Below are positions 35,023 through 45,788 of a stretch of 64,000 bases of DNA, in pieces. Numbering within the stretch: the stretch's first letter is position 1; every line of letters begins with the position of its first letter. The position numbers and the translations under genes are program-made. Under the pieces are notes generated by a model. It had not been told where the DNA came from and did no database searches. It saw only the letters and a program-made list of their open reading frames with translations. The stretch is from Methanomicrobiales archaeon (GTDB lineage: Archaea; Halobacteriota; Methanomicrobia; Methanomicrobiales; JACTUA01), in assembly GCA_030019205.1 (NCBI GenBank), contig JASEFH010000007.1, forward strand, positions 1 through 64,000, given 5' to 3'.

Positions 35023-35121
35023 CCCTATCGCCGCGGTCGAGCGGTGGTCCTGACGCCGGGGAAGGCAGGACGGATCTTCTCCAGAACCCAAGATTCTTTT
35101 AATCCTGCATCGGATACTCAT

Positions 35122-35919
35122 ATGGGAATGGGAGACCTTTTACAGATCGTCACATCCTCGGAGAAGCGCAAAGGGCTCCTCCTTCTTCTCCGGTCCGGTC
35201 CGAAAACTTGGGAGGAGATAAAGACCTCCCTTGCGGTCACTGCCACCGGTATGCTGCCCCAGATCAAAATCCTCGCAGAGAATCATCTGGTGCAACAGGA
35301 TGGGAAACGGTACCGGCTCACCGATCGGGGCGAGATCGTCGCCGCGCATCTGGAGCCCCTGATAAAAACCCTGAACGTCCTCGAAAGACTGGGTGCGTTC
35401 TGGAATGAGCACGATCACAGTGCCATCCCCCCTCGCCTGCTGGCGCGGATAGGAGAGCTCGGGGATATCAAGATCGTCGAGGGCAATCCCGAAGAGATCT
35501 ATGAACCCCACCGGGAGTTCCTGGACAACATCCTGCGATCGAGGAGACTTGTCGGGATCGCTCCGTTCGTCCATCCCATTTACCCGGAGTTCTTCCTGCG
35601 GCTGGCCGAGAGGGGCATGGAGATCTCCCTTCTGCTCACGGAAGGTGCGTATTCCAAGATCGAGAAAGACTACAGCGATAAACTGATGCGGGGACTGCAG
35701 TACGAGAATGCGCACCTCTATGTATTCCCCGATGATATCAGACTGGCATTTGTCGTGACCGACATCTTCTTCTCGGTATCGTTCTTCTTCAGGAACGGCG
35801 TCTTTGATCCCAAGCGGGACATCGTCAGCTTCGACCCATCCGCCCGCGCCTGGGGGGAGGAACTCTTCGAGCACTACAGGAGTCTCTCCCGGGAAGTAAC
35901 GAAAAAGATGCTGTCCTAA
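35122..35919 (+). CDS. Winged-helix transcriptional regulator, DUF1724 type
   Basis: The protein has 265 residues. The N-terminal winged helix (residues about 1-75) reads LLQIVTSSEKRKGLLLLLRSGPKTWEEIKTSLAVTATGMLPQIKILAENHLVQQDGKRYRLTDRGEIVAAHLEPL. The C-terminal DUF1724 domain (about 120-260) includes PHREFLDNILRSRRLVGIAPFVHPIYPEFFLRLAERGMEISLLLTEGAY and LAFVVTDIFFSVSFFFRNGVFDPKRDIVSFD. This pairing is widespread and often multicopy in Methanomicrobia and Methanosarcina, with unknown ligands. TTCTTTTAATCC at 35094-35105 is about 23 bp from ATG 35122, pointing to a leaderless transcript. A second ATG two codons on is possible. Confidence 0.85.
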   Translation: MGMGDLLQIVTSSEKRKGLLLLLRSGPKTWEEIKTSLAVTATGMLPQIKILAENHLVQQDGKRYRLTDRGEIVAAHLEPLIKTLNVLERLGAFWNEHDHSAIPPRLLARIGELGDIKIVEGNPEEIYEPHREFLDNILRSRRLVGIAPFVHPIYPEFFLRLAERGMEISLLLTEGAYSKIEKDYSDKLMRGLQYENAHLYVFPDDIRLAFVVTDIFFSVSFFFRNGVFDPKRDIVSFDPSARAWGEELFEHYRSLSREVTKKMLS

Positions 35920-36208: not shown

Positions 36209-37427
36209 ATGAACCGCAACGGGAATAACCTGCATATACTCTGCTCTTTCATGGAGAGGGTAAAGGACGTCTTTATCGCCATCGATAGGCAGGGCTACAT
36301 CACCTACATCAGCCCCCAGGTCAGGCGATACGGCTACACCCCGGAGGAGATCGTGAACCGCCACATCGGGGAGTTCATTCTTGAGGAAGACCGTGAGAGG
36401 GTCCTGGCCGATTTCGAACGGACAATGCTCACCGCCGAAGAGTTCCCCACCCAGTTCCGGTTCCGCGACCGATCGGGGGCGGTCTGGTGGATTGAGGAAT
36501 ACAGTTCGGTCTGCACCGATGAGTCGGGTGCTGTCACCGGCATCAAGGGCGTACTGCGCGATATCACCGATCGCAAAATAGCGGAGGAGGAGCTGCAGCA
36601 GATCCGGGTCTACCTGGAAAACCTTGTCCAGGAGCGAACCGCCGGCCTCGTTGCCGCGAACGAGAGGCTTTCGAGGGAGATCGTCGAGCGGAAGGAGCAG
36701 GAGAGAAGGCTGGAAGAGATCGCTGCTGCGCTGCGCCAGAGCAACCAGGAGCTGGAGCGGTTTGCCTACGTGGCCTCCCACGACCTGCAGGAGCCGATCC
36801 GGGCCATTACCAGCTATGCTCAGCTCATCGCACGGCGGTACCAGGGGAGGCTCGATCCGGACGCCGACGAGTTCCTGCAGTTCATCGTCGACGGCGGGAT
36901 GCGGATGCAGGCGCTGGTGAACGACCTCCTGGAGTACTCGCGGGTGTCCACGCAGGGAAAACCCCTCGAACCCACGGAGAGCGAGAGTGCCCTGCGGCAC
37001 GCGCTTGACAACCTGAACCAGACCATCGAGGATCAGGGGGCCTGCATCACGCACGATCCGCTCCCGAGGGTGATGGCAGACAACTCCCAGCTGGTGCGTC
37101 TCTTCCAGAACCTGATCGACAATGCCATCAAGTTCCGGAGGGAGGACGAACGGCCGGAGATCCACATCTCCGTGCGACCCTCCGGGGGCGATGGTTCAGT
37201 TTTCCGTGCGGGACAACGGCATCGGGATCGATCCCGGATACAGGGATAAGATCTTTGTCATGTTCCAGCGGCTGCACACCATGGAGCAGTACCCCGGCAC
37301 CGGCATCGGGCTCGCCATCTGCAAGCGGATCGTGGAGCGGCACGGCGGACGGATCTGGGTGGAATCGGAGCCGGGGAAGGGATCGGTCTTCCACCTCACC
37401 CTGCCCGCAGTGACGCACCAGCGCTGA
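36209..37427 (+). pseudogene. PAS sensor histidine kinase with one frameshift
   Basis: The reading frame from 36209 gives a PAS domain (about 15-125, AIDRQGYITYISPQVRRYGYTPEEIV), a coiled coil (125-180), HisKA with H191 in YVASHDLQEPIR, and the N-box [14 protein letters not shown] near residue 300. It then runs out of frame after [10 protein letters not shown] and stops at 37249. In the frame one base over, from about 37190, [43 protein letters not shown] and [16 protein letters not shown] complete the ATPase domain to a stop at 37427. The break lies at CCGGGGGCG. All catalytic boxes are otherwise intact, so one base corrects the gene to about 405 residues. It precedes the KaiC gene on the same strand by about 110 bp and may belong to the same signalling locus. 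Confidence 0.8.
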
Positions 37428-37535: not shown

Positions 37536-39203
37536 ATGCTCCAGAGAAGAAAGATCGGTCAGTCCCTGCATGCAGAGCTGCAAAAAAGCCCGAGCGGGAT
37601 CCAGGGCCTGGACGAGATCACGGATGGAGGGCTCCCGAAAGGGCGGGTCTCCCTCGTCGTCGGGAAGGCCGGGTCCGGCAAGACCCTGCTCGGGATGGAA
37701 TTTCTGCTGCGCGGCGCTCTGGAGTACCATGAGCCGGGCGTCTTTATCTCCTTCGAGGAGACGGAGAGGGACCTCGTCCAGAATTTCGCGTCGCTCGGCT
37801 ACGATCTGACGGCGCTCATGGAGAAGAACCAGATTGCCATCGATCATATGGACGTGACCCGAAACGACATCATCGAGACCGGCGAGTTCGATCTGGAAGG
37901 CCTGTTCATCCGCCTCAACCACGCCATCGACAGCATCGGGGCAAAGCGCGTGGTGCTGGACACCATCGAGTCGCTCTTCTCCGGCCTCACCAATGCCGGC
38001 ATCCTGCGGGCGGAGCTCCGCCGCCTGTTCTTCTGGTTGAAAGAGAAGGGTGTCACCGCGATCGTCACCGGCGAGAGCGGCGAGGGGGCCCTGACCCGCC
38101 ACGGCCTCGAGGAGTACATCTCCGACTGCGTCATTGTGCTCGACCACCGCGTCGAGGATCAGATCTCCACGCGCCGCCTGCGGGTGGTGAAGTACCGGGG
38201 CTCGACTCACGGCACCAACGAATACCCGTTCCTGATCGACGAGGGCGGGATCTCGGTGCTGCCCATCACCTCCGTCGGGCTCGCCTACACGGTCACGAAG
38301 GATAGGGTATCGAGCGGCATCGAGCGCCTCGATACGATGCTCGAAGGACGGGGGTTCTACCGAGGGTCCACCATCCTGCTCGCAGGAACCCCCGGCACCG
38401 GCAAGACCAGTTTTGCGGCTGCCTTCGCCGACGCCGCCTGCCGGCGGGGGGAGCGGTGCCTGTTCTTCTCTTTCGAGGAGTCGCCCGACCAGATCATACG
38501 CAATGTGCAGTCCATCGGGATCGACCTGACGCCGCACCTGGAGAGCGGTCTCCTGCGGATCCACTCGTCCCGCCCGACGCTGTTCGGCCTGGAGATGCAC
38601 CTGGTGCTGATGCTCAAGGAGATCCGGGAGGTGCGGCCGCAGGCGGTGATCGTGGATCCGCTCTCCGACCTCATCGCTGTCGGTTCCACGAAGGACGTCA
38701 AGATGATGCTCGTACGCCTGGTCGACTACCTGAAGATGCAGCAGATCACCGCGTTCTTCACGCACCTGATCCACACCCGCGAAGCGCTGCAGCCGAGCGA
38801 TCTCGCCGTCTCCTCCATCATCGACACCCTGATCCATCTCCGGGACATCGAGTGCGGGGGGGAGCACAACCGCGGGATGTTCATCCTGAAGTCGCGGGGG
38901 ATGGCCCACTCGAACCAGATCCGGGAGTACCGGATCACGGACGGCGGCATCGTCATCGAGGATACCTGCCCCGGCGGCCCGGGCGGAACAGTCCTGGACC
39001 GCGCCCGCCACGAGCCGGTTGTGCGGAGGGAGAGGATCGGGACCCGGGAGCGGGAGTCGATGGGGACGCCAATCGCCCCCCGCGAGGCGGGCGTGCAACG
39101 GCAGATCCTGCCGGATCGGCGCATCGGCTCGACAGGGAAGACCGATGCCGGAGATGACAGAAACGCACATACGGGCGGAGATGTCATGGAGAAGGACCGA
39201 TGA
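37536..39203 (+). CDS. kaiC: KaiC-family ATPase with two RecA-like domains
   Basis: The protein has 555 residues. Domain CI (about 15-245) has Walker [10 protein letters not shown] (43-50), catalytic Glu pair SFEE (E74, E75) and Walker [12 protein letters not shown]. Domain CII (about 255-470) has Walker [10 protein letters not shown] (284-291), SFEE (E314, E315) and Walker [11 protein letters not shown]. The pair S426-S427 in [13 protein letters not shown] aligns with the S431/T432 autophosphorylation sites of cyanobacterial Kai[11 protein letters not shown] marks the end of CII. A polar, Arg-rich tail of about 85 residues follows, the position of the A-loop/tail. The stop overlaps the ATG of a kaiB gene (ATGA), and a second kaiB and a PAS kinase follow. 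It is likely a hexameric timing or signalling ATPase; rhythmic function is not shown. TACTTTTATGCC near 37488 may be the promoter. Confidence 0.9.
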
Positions 39204-39514
39204 CAGATGCCATGAGCCGCGAGGCGGATGAGACGGGGGAAATCTGGGTCCTGCGGCTCTATGTCGCTGGCCAGACGCCGAAGTCGCTCGCTGCCTTTGC
39301 CAACCTGAAGAAGATCTGCGAGGAGCACCTCGCCGGGCGCTACCGCATCGAGGTGGTCGATCTGCTGGAGCACCCCCAGCTCGCCCGGGGCGACCAGATC
39401 CTGGCTGTTCCCACGCTGGTGCGCCAGCTCCCGCCGCCCCTGCGCAAGATCATCGGCGACCTCTCGAATACGGAGAAGGTTCTCGTGGGCCTGGACATCA
39501 AGCCGGCGCGGTGA
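39200..39514 (+). CDS. kaiB: KaiB-domain protein 1
   Basis: The 104-residue protein is a full KaiB domain: [74 protein letters not shown] in its order of motifs. It includes the hallmark [19 protein letters not shown] and the closing EKVLVGLDI. KaiB has a thioredoxin-like fold-switch form that binds KaiC. The start overlaps the KaiC stop by four bases, so the two are translationally coupled and made in a fixed order. The first 14 residues are extra and acidic. A second KaiB begins 18 bp after its stop. Confidence 0.9.
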
Positions 39515-39532
39515 GCACAGGAGCGTGCCAGC

Positions 39533-39889
39533 ATGGACAGGAGAGACGAACCAGATCCTGCGCAGCCATCGATCGCCGATGCCTTCGATCAGGCGGTGCA
39601 GAGCCGAACGGGCACGCGGTACATCCTGCGGCTCTACGTCACCGGCATGACCCCCCGCTCGCGTGCCGCCATCGAGAACATCAAGCGGATCTGCGAGGAG
39701 CACCTTGAGGGCTGCTACGACCTCGAGGTGATCGACATCTACCAGCAGCCCGAGCGGGCGCGGGAAGCCCAGGTGCTGGCGGCGCCCACACTGATCCGCC
39801 AGCTCCCCCTGCCGCTCCGCAGGCTGATCGGGGACATGTCGGATACGGAACGGGTCCTTCTCGGGCTGGACCTGCGGGTGAAGGAGTGA
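39533..39889 (+). CDS. kaiB: KaiB-domain protein 2
   Basis: This is a second KaiB of 118 residues with a longer N-terminal extension (about 27 residues, MDRRDEPDPAQPSIADAFDQ and on). The domain proper starts at TRYILRLYVTGMTPRSRAAIENIKRICEEHLEG, followed by LEVIDIYQQPERAREAQVLAAPTLIRQLPLPLRRLIGDMSDTERVLLGLDL. It is clearly diverged from the first copy (for example LPLPLRR versus [13 protein letters not shown] versus LLEHPQ), so the duplication is not recent and the two may have different partners or fold-switch behaviour. It sits between kaiB 1 and the PAS kinase in a tight plus-strand cluster. Confidence 0.9.
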   Translation: MDRRDEPDPAQPSIADAFDQAVQSRTGTRYILRLYVTGMTPRSRAAIENIKRICEEHLEGCYDLEVIDIYQQPERAREAQVLAAPTLIRQLPLPLRRLIGDMSDTERVLLGLDLRVKE

Positions 39890-39914
39890 CACTGCACAGA
39901 TTTCGGATGGGACG

Positions 39915-42125
39915 ATGGTGAAAGAGACCCCCTTTGACGCGCGGGAGAAGGAGCTCCTCTTCACGATCGAGAATCTCTCATCCCGCCTCCGCGAAGCCGA
40001 AGAACTCTTGGGTGCGATACGGCGCGGTGAGGTCGACGCGTTCGTCATCTCCACCGATACGGGAGCGAAGACCTACACGCTCGAGGGCGCCGATCGGGCT
40101 TACCGCCAGATCATCGAGCAGATGCGCGAAGGATCGGCGCTCCTCTCCGAAGACGGGACGATTTTCTACGGCAACGCCAGCCTCGCCGGCTTGCTCCAGA
40201 TCCCGCTGGAGCACCTGATCGGGCATTCCATCCGGTCGTTCATCTCGCCCGCGGATCGCGAACGGTTCGATGAGCTGCTGATGCAGGACGGCGGGAGCGA
40301 TGCCGAAATCCATCTCCAGGTGCGCGACGGGTGCCGGATTCCCGTATACATCTCCATCAACCGCCTGCAGGGTGACGAAACGACGGTCTTCTCCGCCGTC
40401 ATGCTGGATCTGACCGCGCAGAAGCGGGCGGAGGCGGCACTGCGGAAGGCCCGCGACGAACTCGAAGACCGCGTGAGAGCGCGGACCGCCGAACTGGCAC
40501 AGGCCAATGCCCGGCTCCAGGCGACGACCGGGGAACTGGCGACGGTGAATGAGGAGCTCAGGATCGCAAACGACGAGTTGCTGCAGATCAATGCCACATT
40601 AGACCGGCAGAACGCCAAGCTGAACGCCGCGCGGAAAGCGGCTGAAGAGGAGCGGCGGCGCTACTACGACCTCTTCGATGCCGCCCCGGAGGGTTACCTG
40701 GTGACGGACCGCAGCGGCACGATCCTGGAGGCGAACAACGCGGCGGCAGCACTCTTCTCGCTCCATAAGGAGAGCCTGGATGGCCGCAACCTCATCCAAT
40801 TCGTCGCAGAGGAGAGCAGAGAGGAGTTCAAGGCCCGGTTGGGCAGTGCTCTGATCGGAGAACGCCAGCAGGACTTCGAACTGGATCTCCGCCCGCTCCA
40901 GAGAGAGAGTGTCTGCGTATCCGCGAGCGTATCCCCGATATTCGGGGAGGAACTCGCCGTCCAATCCCTCCGCTGGATGCTGCGGGACATCACCGATCGC
41001 AAGCGGGCAGAAGAGTCGCTGCGGAGGAGCGAGGCGAAGTACCGCAGCCTCTTCGACGACGACATCACCGCGGACTTCATCTGCGACCTCGACGGGCGGA
41101 TCCTGGACTGCAACCCTGTATTTGCGAAGATGTTTGGATTTGGCTCTGTTGAGGAGGCTGCGTCTGCCAATATCCTGGAGACCTACATCTACCCCCGGGA
41201 GCGCGAGGAGATCCTGGGGCGCCTGCGGCGGGAAAAAAGGCTCGAGAATGTCGAACGGTTCCGTAAGCGGCACGACGGGACCCGCATCCATGTCGTCGAG
41301 AACATCGTCGGGATCTTCGATGAGGGCGGGAGCCTGGTCCAGACCAAGGGCTACATCATCGAGGACACCGAGCGCCTGCGGGCGGAAGAGGCCCTGAAGC
41401 AGTACGCGGTGCGCCTGAAGCGGTCCAACGAGGACCTGGAGCGGTTCGCCTACGTCTCCAGCCACGATCTGCAGGAGCCCCTGCGGACGATCGTGACCTT
41501 CACCCAGCTGCTGGAGCGGCGCTACCGCGACCGTCTGGATACCGACGCGAGCGAGTATATCGACTACATCGTGGACGCCGGCAAACGGATGCAGGCCCTG
41601 ATCACCGATCTGCTCAACTACTCCCGGGTGAGCAGCCAGGTGCACGCCCCGCTGCCCATCCGCCCCGAAGTGGTGCTCGCGCAGGCCCTGCTCGCCCTCG
41701 ACGGCATCCTGGAGGAGGCGGGGGCGACGGTCACGTACGATCCCCTTCCCATGGTGGAGGCGGACGCCCAGCAGCTGGTGCAGGTCTTCCAGAACCTGAT
41801 CAGCAACGCGGTGAAGTACCGCCGCGAGGACGAGCCGCCGAAGGTCCATGTCTCGGCGGAGCGCCGCAACGGCTACGTGCAGTTCTCCGTCGCCGACAAC
41901 GGGATCGGGATCGAGCCGCAGTACTTCGACCGCATCTTCGTCATCTTCCAGCGTCTCCACGGGCGGGAGAAGTACTCGGGGACGGGGATCGGGCTCGCCA
42001 TCGTGAAGCGGATCGTGGAGCGGCACGGCGGGCGGATCTGGGTCGAGTCCGAGCCGGGGAAGGGCTCCACCTTCCACTTCACCCTGCCGGCACCTCCAGA
42101 GTTCTCCTCGGGAGGGGAGGAATGA
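39915..42125 (+). CDS. PAS sensor histidine kinase of the KaiC/KaiB cluster
   Basis: The 736-residue kinase starts 25 bp after kaiB 2. An N-terminal helix and linker (LSSRLREAEELLGAIRRGEVDAFVIS) are followed by PAS 1 (about 60-170). A long coiled coil (about 165-245, with repeated ELATVNEELRIANDELLQINATL) leads to PAS 2 (about 248-362) and PAS 3 (about 370-485). HisKA follows with H517 in YVSSHDLQEPLR, then HATPase_c with N-box QNLISNAVKYRRED, G1 [12 protein letters not shown] and G2 [12 protein letters not shown]. It is soluble and has no receiver domain. In cyanobacteria the output kinase SasA carries a KaiB-like domain; this protein does not, so coupling to KaiC would have to be different. 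The gene order suggests it is the output or input kinase of the Kai module. Confidence 0.9.
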   Translation: MVKETPFDAREKELLFTIENLSSRLREAEELLGAIRRGEVDAFVISTDTGAKTYTLEGADRAYRQIIEQMREGSALLSEDGTIFYGNASLAGLLQIPLEHLIGHSIRSFISPADRERFDELLMQDGGSDAEIHLQVRDGCRIPVYISINRLQGDETTVFSAVMLDLTAQKRAEAALRKARDELEDRVRARTAELAQANARLQATTGELATVNEELRIANDELLQINATLDRQNAKLNAARKAAEEERRRYYDLFDAAPEGYLVTDRSGTILEANNAAAALFSLHKESLDGRNLIQFVAEESREEFKARLGSALIGERQQDFELDLRPLQRESVCVSASVSPIFGEELAVQSLRWMLRDITDRKRAEESLRRSEAKYRSLFDDDITADFICDLDGRILDCNPVFAKMFGFGSVEEAASANILETYIYPREREEILGRLRREKRLENVERFRKRHDGTRIHVVENIVGIFDEGGSLVQTKGYIIEDTERLRAEEALKQYAVRLKRSNEDLERFAYVSSHDLQEPLRTIVTFTQLLERRYRDRLDTDASEYIDYIVDAGKRMQALITDLLNYSRVSSQVHAPLPIRPEVVLAQALLALDGILEEAGATVTYDPLPMVEADAQQLVQVFQNLISNAVKYRREDEPPKVHVSAERRNGYVQFSVADNGIGIEPQYFDRIFVIFQRLHGREKYSGTGIGLAIVKRIVERHGGRIWVESEPGKGSTFHFTLPAPPEFSSGGEE

Positions 42126-44486: not shown

Positions 44487-45788
44487 TCAGCTGCCCGGGT
44501 CTGCAACCCGCCCGATGAACAGGATGGCGCCGCTCTCGTTCTCCTGGATCAGGAACAGGAACGGATGGTCGGCGCGGAAGACCGGTATCTGCTCTTCGGG
44601 GGAGGGGGCCATCAGCACCCGCATGACCACGCCCGTCGCCGCCGCCGCCTCGGTGCCCTCCTCGTTCACGTCGACGAACGCCTTGTGCACGACGTCGCTG
44701 ATATACAGGTCCTTCGTGCCGTCCATCCCCGAGAAGTCCGCCGCGCCGGGGGCGAACGCCGTCGGCATCCCCATTGCCGCGAGCGTTCCGGGCAGGCGGT
44801 ACTCCGTCTCGAGCCGGAACTTCGGGAAGAAGACGTCGACGCGCCGCGATACGAGCGACTGCCGCAGTGCCGACAGATTCTCCGCGTCGAGCGCCGCCTC
44901 CGCCGCCGTCAGGTTATCCTCTCTCGGCAGGAGGACGAGCATGGACAGCGCCCGTCCTCCATCGCGGACATAGGGCATCTCGAGCACCTGCAGGGCGTCG
45001 GTCTCCGTGTAGTTGTAGATCGCCTCCTCGTCGGTCCTCTGCATCATCGGGATCCACACGGCAGCACCGGAGGCGGTACGGAACTCCTCCTCCCGGGTGC
45101 TGTTCGTGTCGAACTGCTTGACCCAGGTGCCCTCGAAGTAGATCGCGTTCGTGATGACGAGCCGCGTCAGCGGATCGATCGAGCCCGCCGGCAGCAGGTC
45201 CCGGATCCGCTCCTCGGTCTGCTCCTCCACCCAGGCGTTGATCGCGATGCGCGAGGGTTCGGGCGCGTTTATGAAGTCGAGGTTGGTGACGTTTGCCGCG
45301 TAGTAGCGACCGGCGATATCGATGTAGCCGGGCAGGAACGGATACGTCTCTTCCGCCCAGAGGGCGTTCGCCGTGCGCAGGGTGTAGTTGCGATCGCCGC
45401 TGTTGATACCTGCGTAGATCGCCGCGAAACCCTCCCTTCGAATAGTTTCATTCTCCGGAAAGCCAAACACCGCCCGGATCTCCTCCGCCGTCTCGCCGCG
45501 GGCGCCCTCGAGGGTGATCGCCAGGGCCGACGAGAGGCTGAAGGGCGAGAAGAAGATGTTGCCGTCCGCATACCGCGGATCGTCTGCCAGTTCCCGGTAG
45601 AGGTCGACGGCGAAGCGATTGTTCCCCGCCACCACGCCGCCGGCATCGGTCGGGGTGGCGTTCGCCTGCCCTCCGGATGATCCCGGCTGGACCGATGTCG
45701 TGTCCGTTGCACCCAGGCACCCCGCCAGGAGGATGCCGAGGGCGACGACGGACACCAGGACCAGAGTTCCACGGATCGTCTTCTGCAT
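44487..45788 (-). CDS. Lipoprotein serpin (serine protease inhibitor)
   Basis: The protein has 433 residues. A signal peptide with lipobox LLAGCLG (Cys about 24) and a Ser/Thr/Gly linker are followed by a full serpin domain: NRFAVDLYRELADDPRYADGNIFFSPFSLSSALAITLEGARGETAEEI, NALWAEETYPFLPGYIDIA, LVITNAIYFEGTWVKQFD, FFPKFRLETEYRLPGTLAAMGM, DVVHKAFVDVNEEGTEAAAATGVVM and FRADHPFLFLIQ. The hinge EEGTEAAAAT is that of inhibitory serpins. The scissile bond should fall near MRVLMAP, so a hydrophobic P1 suggests chymotrypsin-, subtilisin- or elastase-like targets. It is anchored outside the cell. A TATA element at 45811-45819 is about 25 bp from the ATG (leaderless). Confidence 0.92.
   Translation of the reverse strand: MQKTIRGTLVLVSVVALGILLAGCLGATDTTSVQPGSSGGQANATPTDAGGVVAGNNRFAVDLYRELADDPRYADGNIFFSPFSLSSALAITLEGARGETAEEIRAVFGFPENETIRREGFAAIYAGINSGDRNYTLRTANALWAEETYPFLPGYIDIAGRYYAANVTNLDFINAPEPSRIAINAWVEEQTEERIRDLLPAGSIDPLTRLVITNAIYFEGTWVKQFDTNSTREEEFRTASGAAVWIPMMQRTDEEAIYNYTETDALQVLEMPYVRDGGRALSMLVLLPREDNLTAAEAALDAENLSALRQSLVSRRVDVFFPKFRLETEYRLPGTLAAMGMPTAFAPGAADFSGMDGTKDLYISDVVHKAFVDVNEEGTEAAAATGVVMRVLMAPSPEEQIPVFRADHPFLFLIQENESGAILFIGRVADPGS

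Follow-up and report, generated by a model that had tools for sequence, protein, structure and literature searches.

How KaiBC systems outside cyanobacteria pass the state of KaiC on to an output is puzzling: the SasA homologues there have no KaiB-like domain, and RpaA is for the most part missing (PMC5520375). The question is raised by a locus in the first 64,000 nucleotides of contig JASEFH010000007.1 from a Methanomicrobiales archaeon (assembly GCA_030019205.1; this whole stretch is called the window below), where a kaiC gene is followed by two kaiB genes and a gene for a histidine kinase. KaiBC signalling and the order kaiC-kaiB-kaiB-regulator were already known. What is new is that the two KaiBs belong to separate classes, alpha and beta, and that the kinase begins with a module, without a name so far, which is nearly exclusive to kai loci.

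A compact kai locus

The features of the locus are as follows.

37536-39203, forward strand: kaiC, 555 aa, two-domain, with two PF06745 domains (PRK09302, 691 bits)
38948-39203, forward strand: C-terminal tail of KaiC, about 84 aa past residue 471, rich in Arg and Gly and unlike the tail profile of relatives
39200-39514, forward strand: kaiB-alpha (KaiB1), 104 aa, PF07689 96.6 bits; its class includes the KaiB of R. sphaeroides
39533-39889, forward strand: kaiB-beta (KaiB2), 118 aa, PF07689 93.1 bits; second-position paralogue class
39915-42125, forward strand: sensor histidine kinase, 736 aa, with an N-terminal module, three PAS domains, HisKA and HATPase_c; no receiver domain
39942-40133, forward strand: N-terminal 'GEVDA' module of the kinase, helix 7-36, hairpin 42-55 and helix 60-69 running into the first PAS domain

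The stop codon of kaiC and the start codon of KaiB1 overlap as ATGA (39200-39203); 18 bp then separate KaiB1 from KaiB2, and 25 bp KaiB2 from the kinase. Coordinates and domain matches agree on this layout, which had been given in a preliminary description made from the sequence alone. The genome to which the window belongs is 99.6% complete, and KaiB1 and KaiB2, both of which score well over the PF07689 threshold, are its only two KaiB domains. Comparison with one relative indicated purifying selection on KaiC, KaiB1 and KaiB2 (dN/dS about 0.1-0.25). No KaiA was found within the four-gene locus (no genome-wide KaiA search was made); KaiA has been reported from cyanobacteria only (PMC5520375).

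The gene order is shared by archaea and bacteria

With KaiB1 as query against bacterial and archaeal genomes, a first set of 80 loci was collected. Loci came from Methanoculleus, Methanosarcina, Methanoperedens, Bathyarchaeota, Deltaproteobacteria, Chromatiales, Nostoc, Chloroflexi, Planctomycetes, Verrucomicrobia and others. Among named organisms, Methanoculleus and further Methanomicrobiales have the loci closest to that of the window, in line with a host from this order. Most loci of the set carry kaiC, kaiB, kaiB and a PAS signalling gene in that order, and the arrangement recurs in methanogens, anaerobic methanotrophic (ANME) archaea, proteobacteria, cyanobacteria and Chloroflexi. Counted with the KaiB profile, two KaiBs are present in 103 loci, three in 7 and one in 14. 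Since resemblance to KaiB1 decided most of this selection, a sample of 199 genomes of the order to which the window belongs (the order sample) gives a less biased picture: a full KaiB match (E < 1e-15) was obtained in 31 of them, 26 of which have the tandem pair.

The order is thus conserved in relatives, so that the test which the preliminary description had set for its own refutation leaves it standing; peculiarity to an archaeon, which that description had suggested, did not hold: bacterial loci share it, and a bacterial cluster kaiC1-kaiB2-kaiB1-kaiR1 has been published for M. extorquens (Iguchi 2018, as quoted in PMC8069551). According to a 2011 survey, non-cyanobacterial kaiC-kaiB clusters are almost always adjoined by a kinase or a GGDEF/EAL gene (PMC3164672). 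The conjugative plasmid p3 of Pararhizobium qamdonense (NZ_CP119568.1) carries kaiC-kaiB-kaiB-regulator with a 4-bp kaiC/kaiB overlap, a copy that shows one possible route by which the kai locus spreads.

The kinase begins with a module nearly confined to kai loci

The first ~75 residues of the kinase have no Pfam match and show a motif common to other post-kaiB genes, roughly L.EAEETLRAIRSGEVDALVV..GEQVFTL.GAD.PYR.L.E.M.EGA. A profile built from 41 post-kaiB genes finds the module in 105 of 111 loci, where the gene following kaiB begins, a figure that is partly so by construction because the profile was derived from the same loci; the six loci without a match lie mostly on short or truncated contigs. 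The genome of the window holds one copy, in this kinase.

To the order sample were added a phylum sample, 274 Gammaproteobacteria, 292 cyanobacteria and 28 bacterial genomes chosen for KaiB. In the order, 30 of the 31 genomes with KaiB have the module and the 168 others lack it (Fisher p = 9e-35, a value that overstates because related genomes are not independent); of its 43 copies, 37 follow a same-strand KaiB domain at a distance below 400 bp (median 67 bp). Six of the 19 Gammaproteobacteria with KaiB have it, as against 0 of the 255 without (Fisher 5e-8). Eight genomes of the phylum sample have the module, all with KaiB, and three more have KaiB without it. Thirteen cyanobacterial genomes carry 14 copies, every one directly behind a beta-class KaiB and 12 with an alpha before that. 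The genomes chosen for KaiB, of 1-8 Mb, hold one or two copies each. Taken together, this distribution indicates that the module marks this locus type and not KaiB in general. Of the three phylum-sample genomes with KaiB and no module, two (G243 and G252, loci L128 and L129) were mapped; these loci consist of kaiC-kaiB-kinase in a different neighbourhood, with neither module nor tandem KaiB pair, so another output arrangement exists.

Module kinases without a kaiB directly upstream occur at G026:C44 (L122), G067:C1 (L124), G141:C8 (L125), G028:C1:6477 (L127) and G016:C8:405895 (L033 347-3706; L033 is from the cultured Methanoculleus sediminis). Those of G028 and G016 stand next to a kai locus in divergent orientation and may act as additional readers of its Kai proteins. 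In a Methylococcaceae locus (L064 4897-8842, also G207:C199:11391-11585), a second KaiB-beta and then a second module gene lie downstream of the first set.

The module could not be equated with a known domain: Pfam searches with 32 members gave no convincing match (best single E 0.002, families inconsistent), and a sequence search of the PDB gave none. A single-sequence tblastn against plasmids was also negative; this reflects a limit of sensitivity, since the profile finds the module on Pararhizobium p3 (94 bits) and on pRSKD131A. The AlphaFold2 (AF2) model of the window sequence with 52 relatives has a mean pLDDT (predicted local distance difference test) of 90, lower in hairpin and linker (65-87), and predicts the long helix, hairpin and second helix listed above, then the PAS domain. 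A fold search with the module-PAS model led to PAS/LOV proteins. Near-invariant residues outside the helix are D35, L50, G32, Y57 and R58 (alignment numbering).

The module precedes exchangeable outputs

Pfam analysis of ten examples placed HisKA, HisKA_2, HisKA_3, GGDEF plus EAL, or HD_5 behind the same module and PAS. One entrance with exchangeable exits is the look that a dedicated input domain would have, judging from these domain orders. Because the module is nearly confined to kai loci and its outputs are swapped, we read it as the putative Kai-sensing part of the kinase. The window kinase has no PF07689 KaiB domain, which bears out the earlier statement that the KaiB-like domain of SasA is missing and excludes the kinase as a SasA homologue; the accompanying implication, that nothing in the kinase is specific to Kai, is contradicted by its N-terminus.

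One archaeal gene is similar in layout to SasA. Its 676-aa frame (L117 4574-6601, G068:C1:1024574-1026601) joins a KaiB, a diverged module, PAS, HisKA and HATPase; its KaiB falls on the beta side of the tree, and it lies apart from the ordinary kai locus (L118).

Tandem KaiBs fall into two classes

In a FastTree phylogeny of 220 non-identical KaiB domains, one branch parts 93/93 first-position from 93/93 second-position KaiBs, with one state change. IQ-TREE on 76 sequences gave the same split (support 96/86 to 96/93). In clusters with three KaiBs (n = 5), two alphas are followed by one beta. Diagnostic residues (T. elongatus numbering) are Gln17, Phe25 and Arg67 in alpha and Ile25, Tyr48-Gln49 and Lys67 in beta, which also has a conserved N-terminal Phe-Glu stretch missing from alpha. 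The KaiB of R. sphaeroides is on the alpha side and that of S. elongatus at the boundary, assigned to neither class.

The window locus carries an alpha-class KaiB first and a beta-class KaiB second. KaiB2, previously described as merely diverged, is a member of a distinct conserved paralogue class, and the split rules out that it arose by recent local duplication. The tandem kaiB pair is, as the trees have it, one ancient alpha/beta division common to archaea and bacteria. KaiB-beta, modelled by AF2 together with its ten closest relatives, matches KaiB structures in the ground state at a low pLDDT of 63, so that a KaiB-beta locked in the fold-switched state is unsupported, within the limits of that score.

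KaiC has two-serine phosphosites and an unusual tail

Walker A and the paired glutamates are intact in both KaiC domains (CI and CII). The phosphosites are Ser426/Ser427, of the KaiC2-like SS type; at each of the two positions, Ser is found in 94 of the 95 sequences aligned. The best likeness is to R. sphaeroides KaiC (581 bits), versus about 330 bits for the KaiC of S. elongatus and cyanobacteria. The coiled-coil C-terminal extension of relatives is replaced by an unrelated in-frame stretch rich in Arg and Gly. A coiled-coil tail profile built from relatives matches 89 of 95 KaiC sequences, and the window KaiC, counted twice, is among the other six, which places it outside the dodecameric coiled-coil KaiC-RS subtype. 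A frameshift was rejected as the cause: GC content at third codon positions is 0.77-0.90 in the annotated frame, and the other frames give no coiled coil. As deletion of the coil leaves autophosphorylation of R. sphaeroides KaiC largely intact (PMC10076222), the window KaiC should, by analogy, remain a kinase; its dephosphorylation may be altered.

Proposed mechanism and alternatives

We lean towards a KaiA-less KaiBC switch whose output enzyme docks via the module, with KaiB-beta as adaptor. KaiBC of R. sphaeroides is an hourglass driven by the ATP/ADP ratio, and its SS-type KaiC autophosphorylates without KaiA (PMC10076222). If the window proteins behave likewise, KaiC would autophosphorylate alone, set by the ATP/ADP ratio, and KaiB-alpha would bind the KaiC ring in one phosphorylation state. 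The anatomy of the locus suggests that KaiB-beta and the helix-hairpin module of the kinase would then form a docking interface, through which the kinase would sense the state of KaiC and alter its activity towards a response regulator encoded elsewhere. Such a scheme would resemble KaiC-SasA, except that the KaiB-like part would be a protein of its own and the output domain could be exchanged.

Several observations weigh against this reading. Legionella KaiB reportedly does not bind its KaiC. The module and an alpha KaiB occur without beta in R. sphaeroides, Falsirhodobacter and loci L024 and L095, so that beta cannot be obligatory for docking. For the role of KaiB2 as adaptor, proposed in the preliminary description, there is evidence on both sides: the fusion of a beta-side KaiB to module and kinase in L117 favours it, and the alpha-only loci that keep the module do not. 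In addition, the module of L117 is diverged, and the profile scores make its fused KaiB beta by a small margin (115.5 vs 107.8 bits). In the order, six of the 43 module matches have no kaiB directly before them. The coiled coil by which dephosphorylation is regulated in R. sphaeroides is missing from the window KaiC. Finally, the kinase is an orphan: none of the 15 receiver domains of the genome is on this contig, and a neighbouring response regulator was rejected as its partner. Judged by a crude pattern, a receiver gene lies at most 500 bp downstream in 4 of 71 loci.

The same docking could serve a switch for energy or stress state that keeps no time, in which KaiC reports ATP/ADP or stress via the kinase. 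This has close to an even chance and is about as likely as strict timing. A role of this kind has been proposed for non-cyanobacterial Kai sets, many hosts in the locus set are metagenome-assembled genomes from sediment or groundwater, and the missing regulatory coil of KaiC points the same way. M. extorquens, whose clusters include the kaiC1-kaiB2-kaiB1-kaiR1 cluster cited above, uses KaiCs in temperature-dependent UV resistance (according to the account of its clusters in PMC8069551). The nearest solved relative, by contrast, is a day/night-driven hourglass (PMC10076222). Timer and energy switch would share one anatomy, so sequence cannot decide between them. A different role for KaiB-beta, as partner or competitor of KaiB-alpha (in a hetero-oligomer or as a buffer) that tunes KaiC dephosphorylation while the kinase reads KaiC-KaiB-alpha via the module, would suit the alpha-only loci, which retain module and kinase, and the model of beta in the ordinary ground-state fold (pLDDT 63). 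We consider it unlikely, for in every tandem locus of the tree beta is the KaiB nearer to the output gene, and the L117 fusion joins a beta-side KaiB to module and kinase.

The docking function of the module itself may also be questioned. A long helix and hairpin before a PAS domain, as AF2 predicts, are a common layout in PAS kinases, and the fold search led to PAS/LOV proteins; the module could be a dimerisation coiled coil with a PAS cap, restricted to kai loci by common descent of one kinase travelling with the operon. Several points make this unlikely: only the module and the first PAS domain are shared, with outputs swapped among unrelated types, near-invariant residues lie outside the helix, and beyond one or two copies no further frames match in the same genomes. 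That the whole locus is a decaying, non-functional remnant in this genome is suggested by the missing coil of KaiC and by a frame break near 37190 in an upstream kinase; it is hardly credible, as KaiC, KaiB1 and KaiB2 have dN/dS of 0.11-0.25, catalytic residues and frames are intact and the genes are tightly coupled.

Neighbouring genes

One further feature lies upstream of kaiC.

36209-37427, forward strand: PAS histidine kinase, frame broken near 37190; probably outside the Kai module

The preliminary description had counted it as a further PAS kinase; it is not intact. Within the ATPase domain, near 37190 and in a G-rich run, the frame 36209-37249 is interrupted, and the remaining HATPase_c is read from another frame within 37122-37427, with a shift in codon-position GC at ~37190. 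Since the ATPase domain is spread over two frames, the gene is a pseudogene or holds a sequencing or assembly indel. Farther upstream lies a FilR1-type regulator (PF08350, HVO_A0261_N; 35119-35919, forward strand), and a Serpin-like lipoprotein frame was recognised by eye at 44487-45788 on the reverse strand.

Comparison with known systems

We suggest, tentatively and at rather less than even chance, that KaiB-beta and the module are a general interface passing the state of KaiC to exchangeable outputs in archaeal and bacterial KaiA-less KaiBC systems. If so, the interface would include an alpha-only form in the crystallised R. sphaeroides clock, its outputs would comprise histidine kinases, cyclic di-GMP enzymes and HD phosphodiesterases, and clock readout would have a second solution next to SasA/CikA. 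Cyanobacterial KaiABC with SasA, CikA and RpaA shares with the window locus the KaiC and KaiB families and, in principle, a kinase output. The window locus differs by having no KaiA and by a kinase that lacks the KaiB-like domain; that kinase starts with another kind of module, and KaiB-beta is encoded as a protein of its own. Published surveys hold it very unlikely that KaiC stimulates the SasA homologues of non-cyanobacteria, as these have no KaiB-like domain (PMC5520375).

The idea of a kinase N-terminus dedicated to kaiC also goes with the kaiC-kinase pairs of Ramlibacter with an Nt_HK domain, but these loci have no kaiB, and the N-terminus was there compared with receiver, SasA and KaiB sequences (PMC3164672). 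Methylorubrum extorquens AM1 likewise has a kaiC followed by two kaiBs and a regulator, as well as two serine phosphosites; it is a bacterium whose KaiCs act in temperature-dependent UV resistance (in the account given in PMC8069551), and the comparison covers its published gene order and phosphosites. Closer is p3 of Pararhizobium qamdonense, with the same order and 4-bp overlap, a KaiB-alpha 79% identical over 87 aa and the module at 94 bits; it differs in being bacterial and plasmid-borne, with an output gene annotated as a response regulator.

Among solved structures, those of Rhodobacter (Cereibacter) sphaeroides come closest, for KaiC (581 bits) as for KaiB (111 bits) (PDB 8DBA, 8FWI, 8FWJ); in strain KD131, plasmid pRSKD131A carries the similar order kaiC-kaiB-HWE kinase. 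Two-serine phosphosites are shared, and the HWE kinase beside kaiB (WP_012643402.1) has the same N-terminal module (50.8 bits, best domain), with a conserved GDVDA motif; the words 'histidine kinase' are absent from the main text of PMC10076222. Differences are the single KaiB, of the alpha class, the HWE type of the kinase and the coiled-coil dodecamer tail of KaiC. The kinship with this hourglass is consistent with the KaiA-less hourglass kind proposed in the preliminary description. With the module behind kaiB, on varied outputs and in the solved R. sphaeroides operon, the output question becomes testable with purified proteins in a tractable organism.

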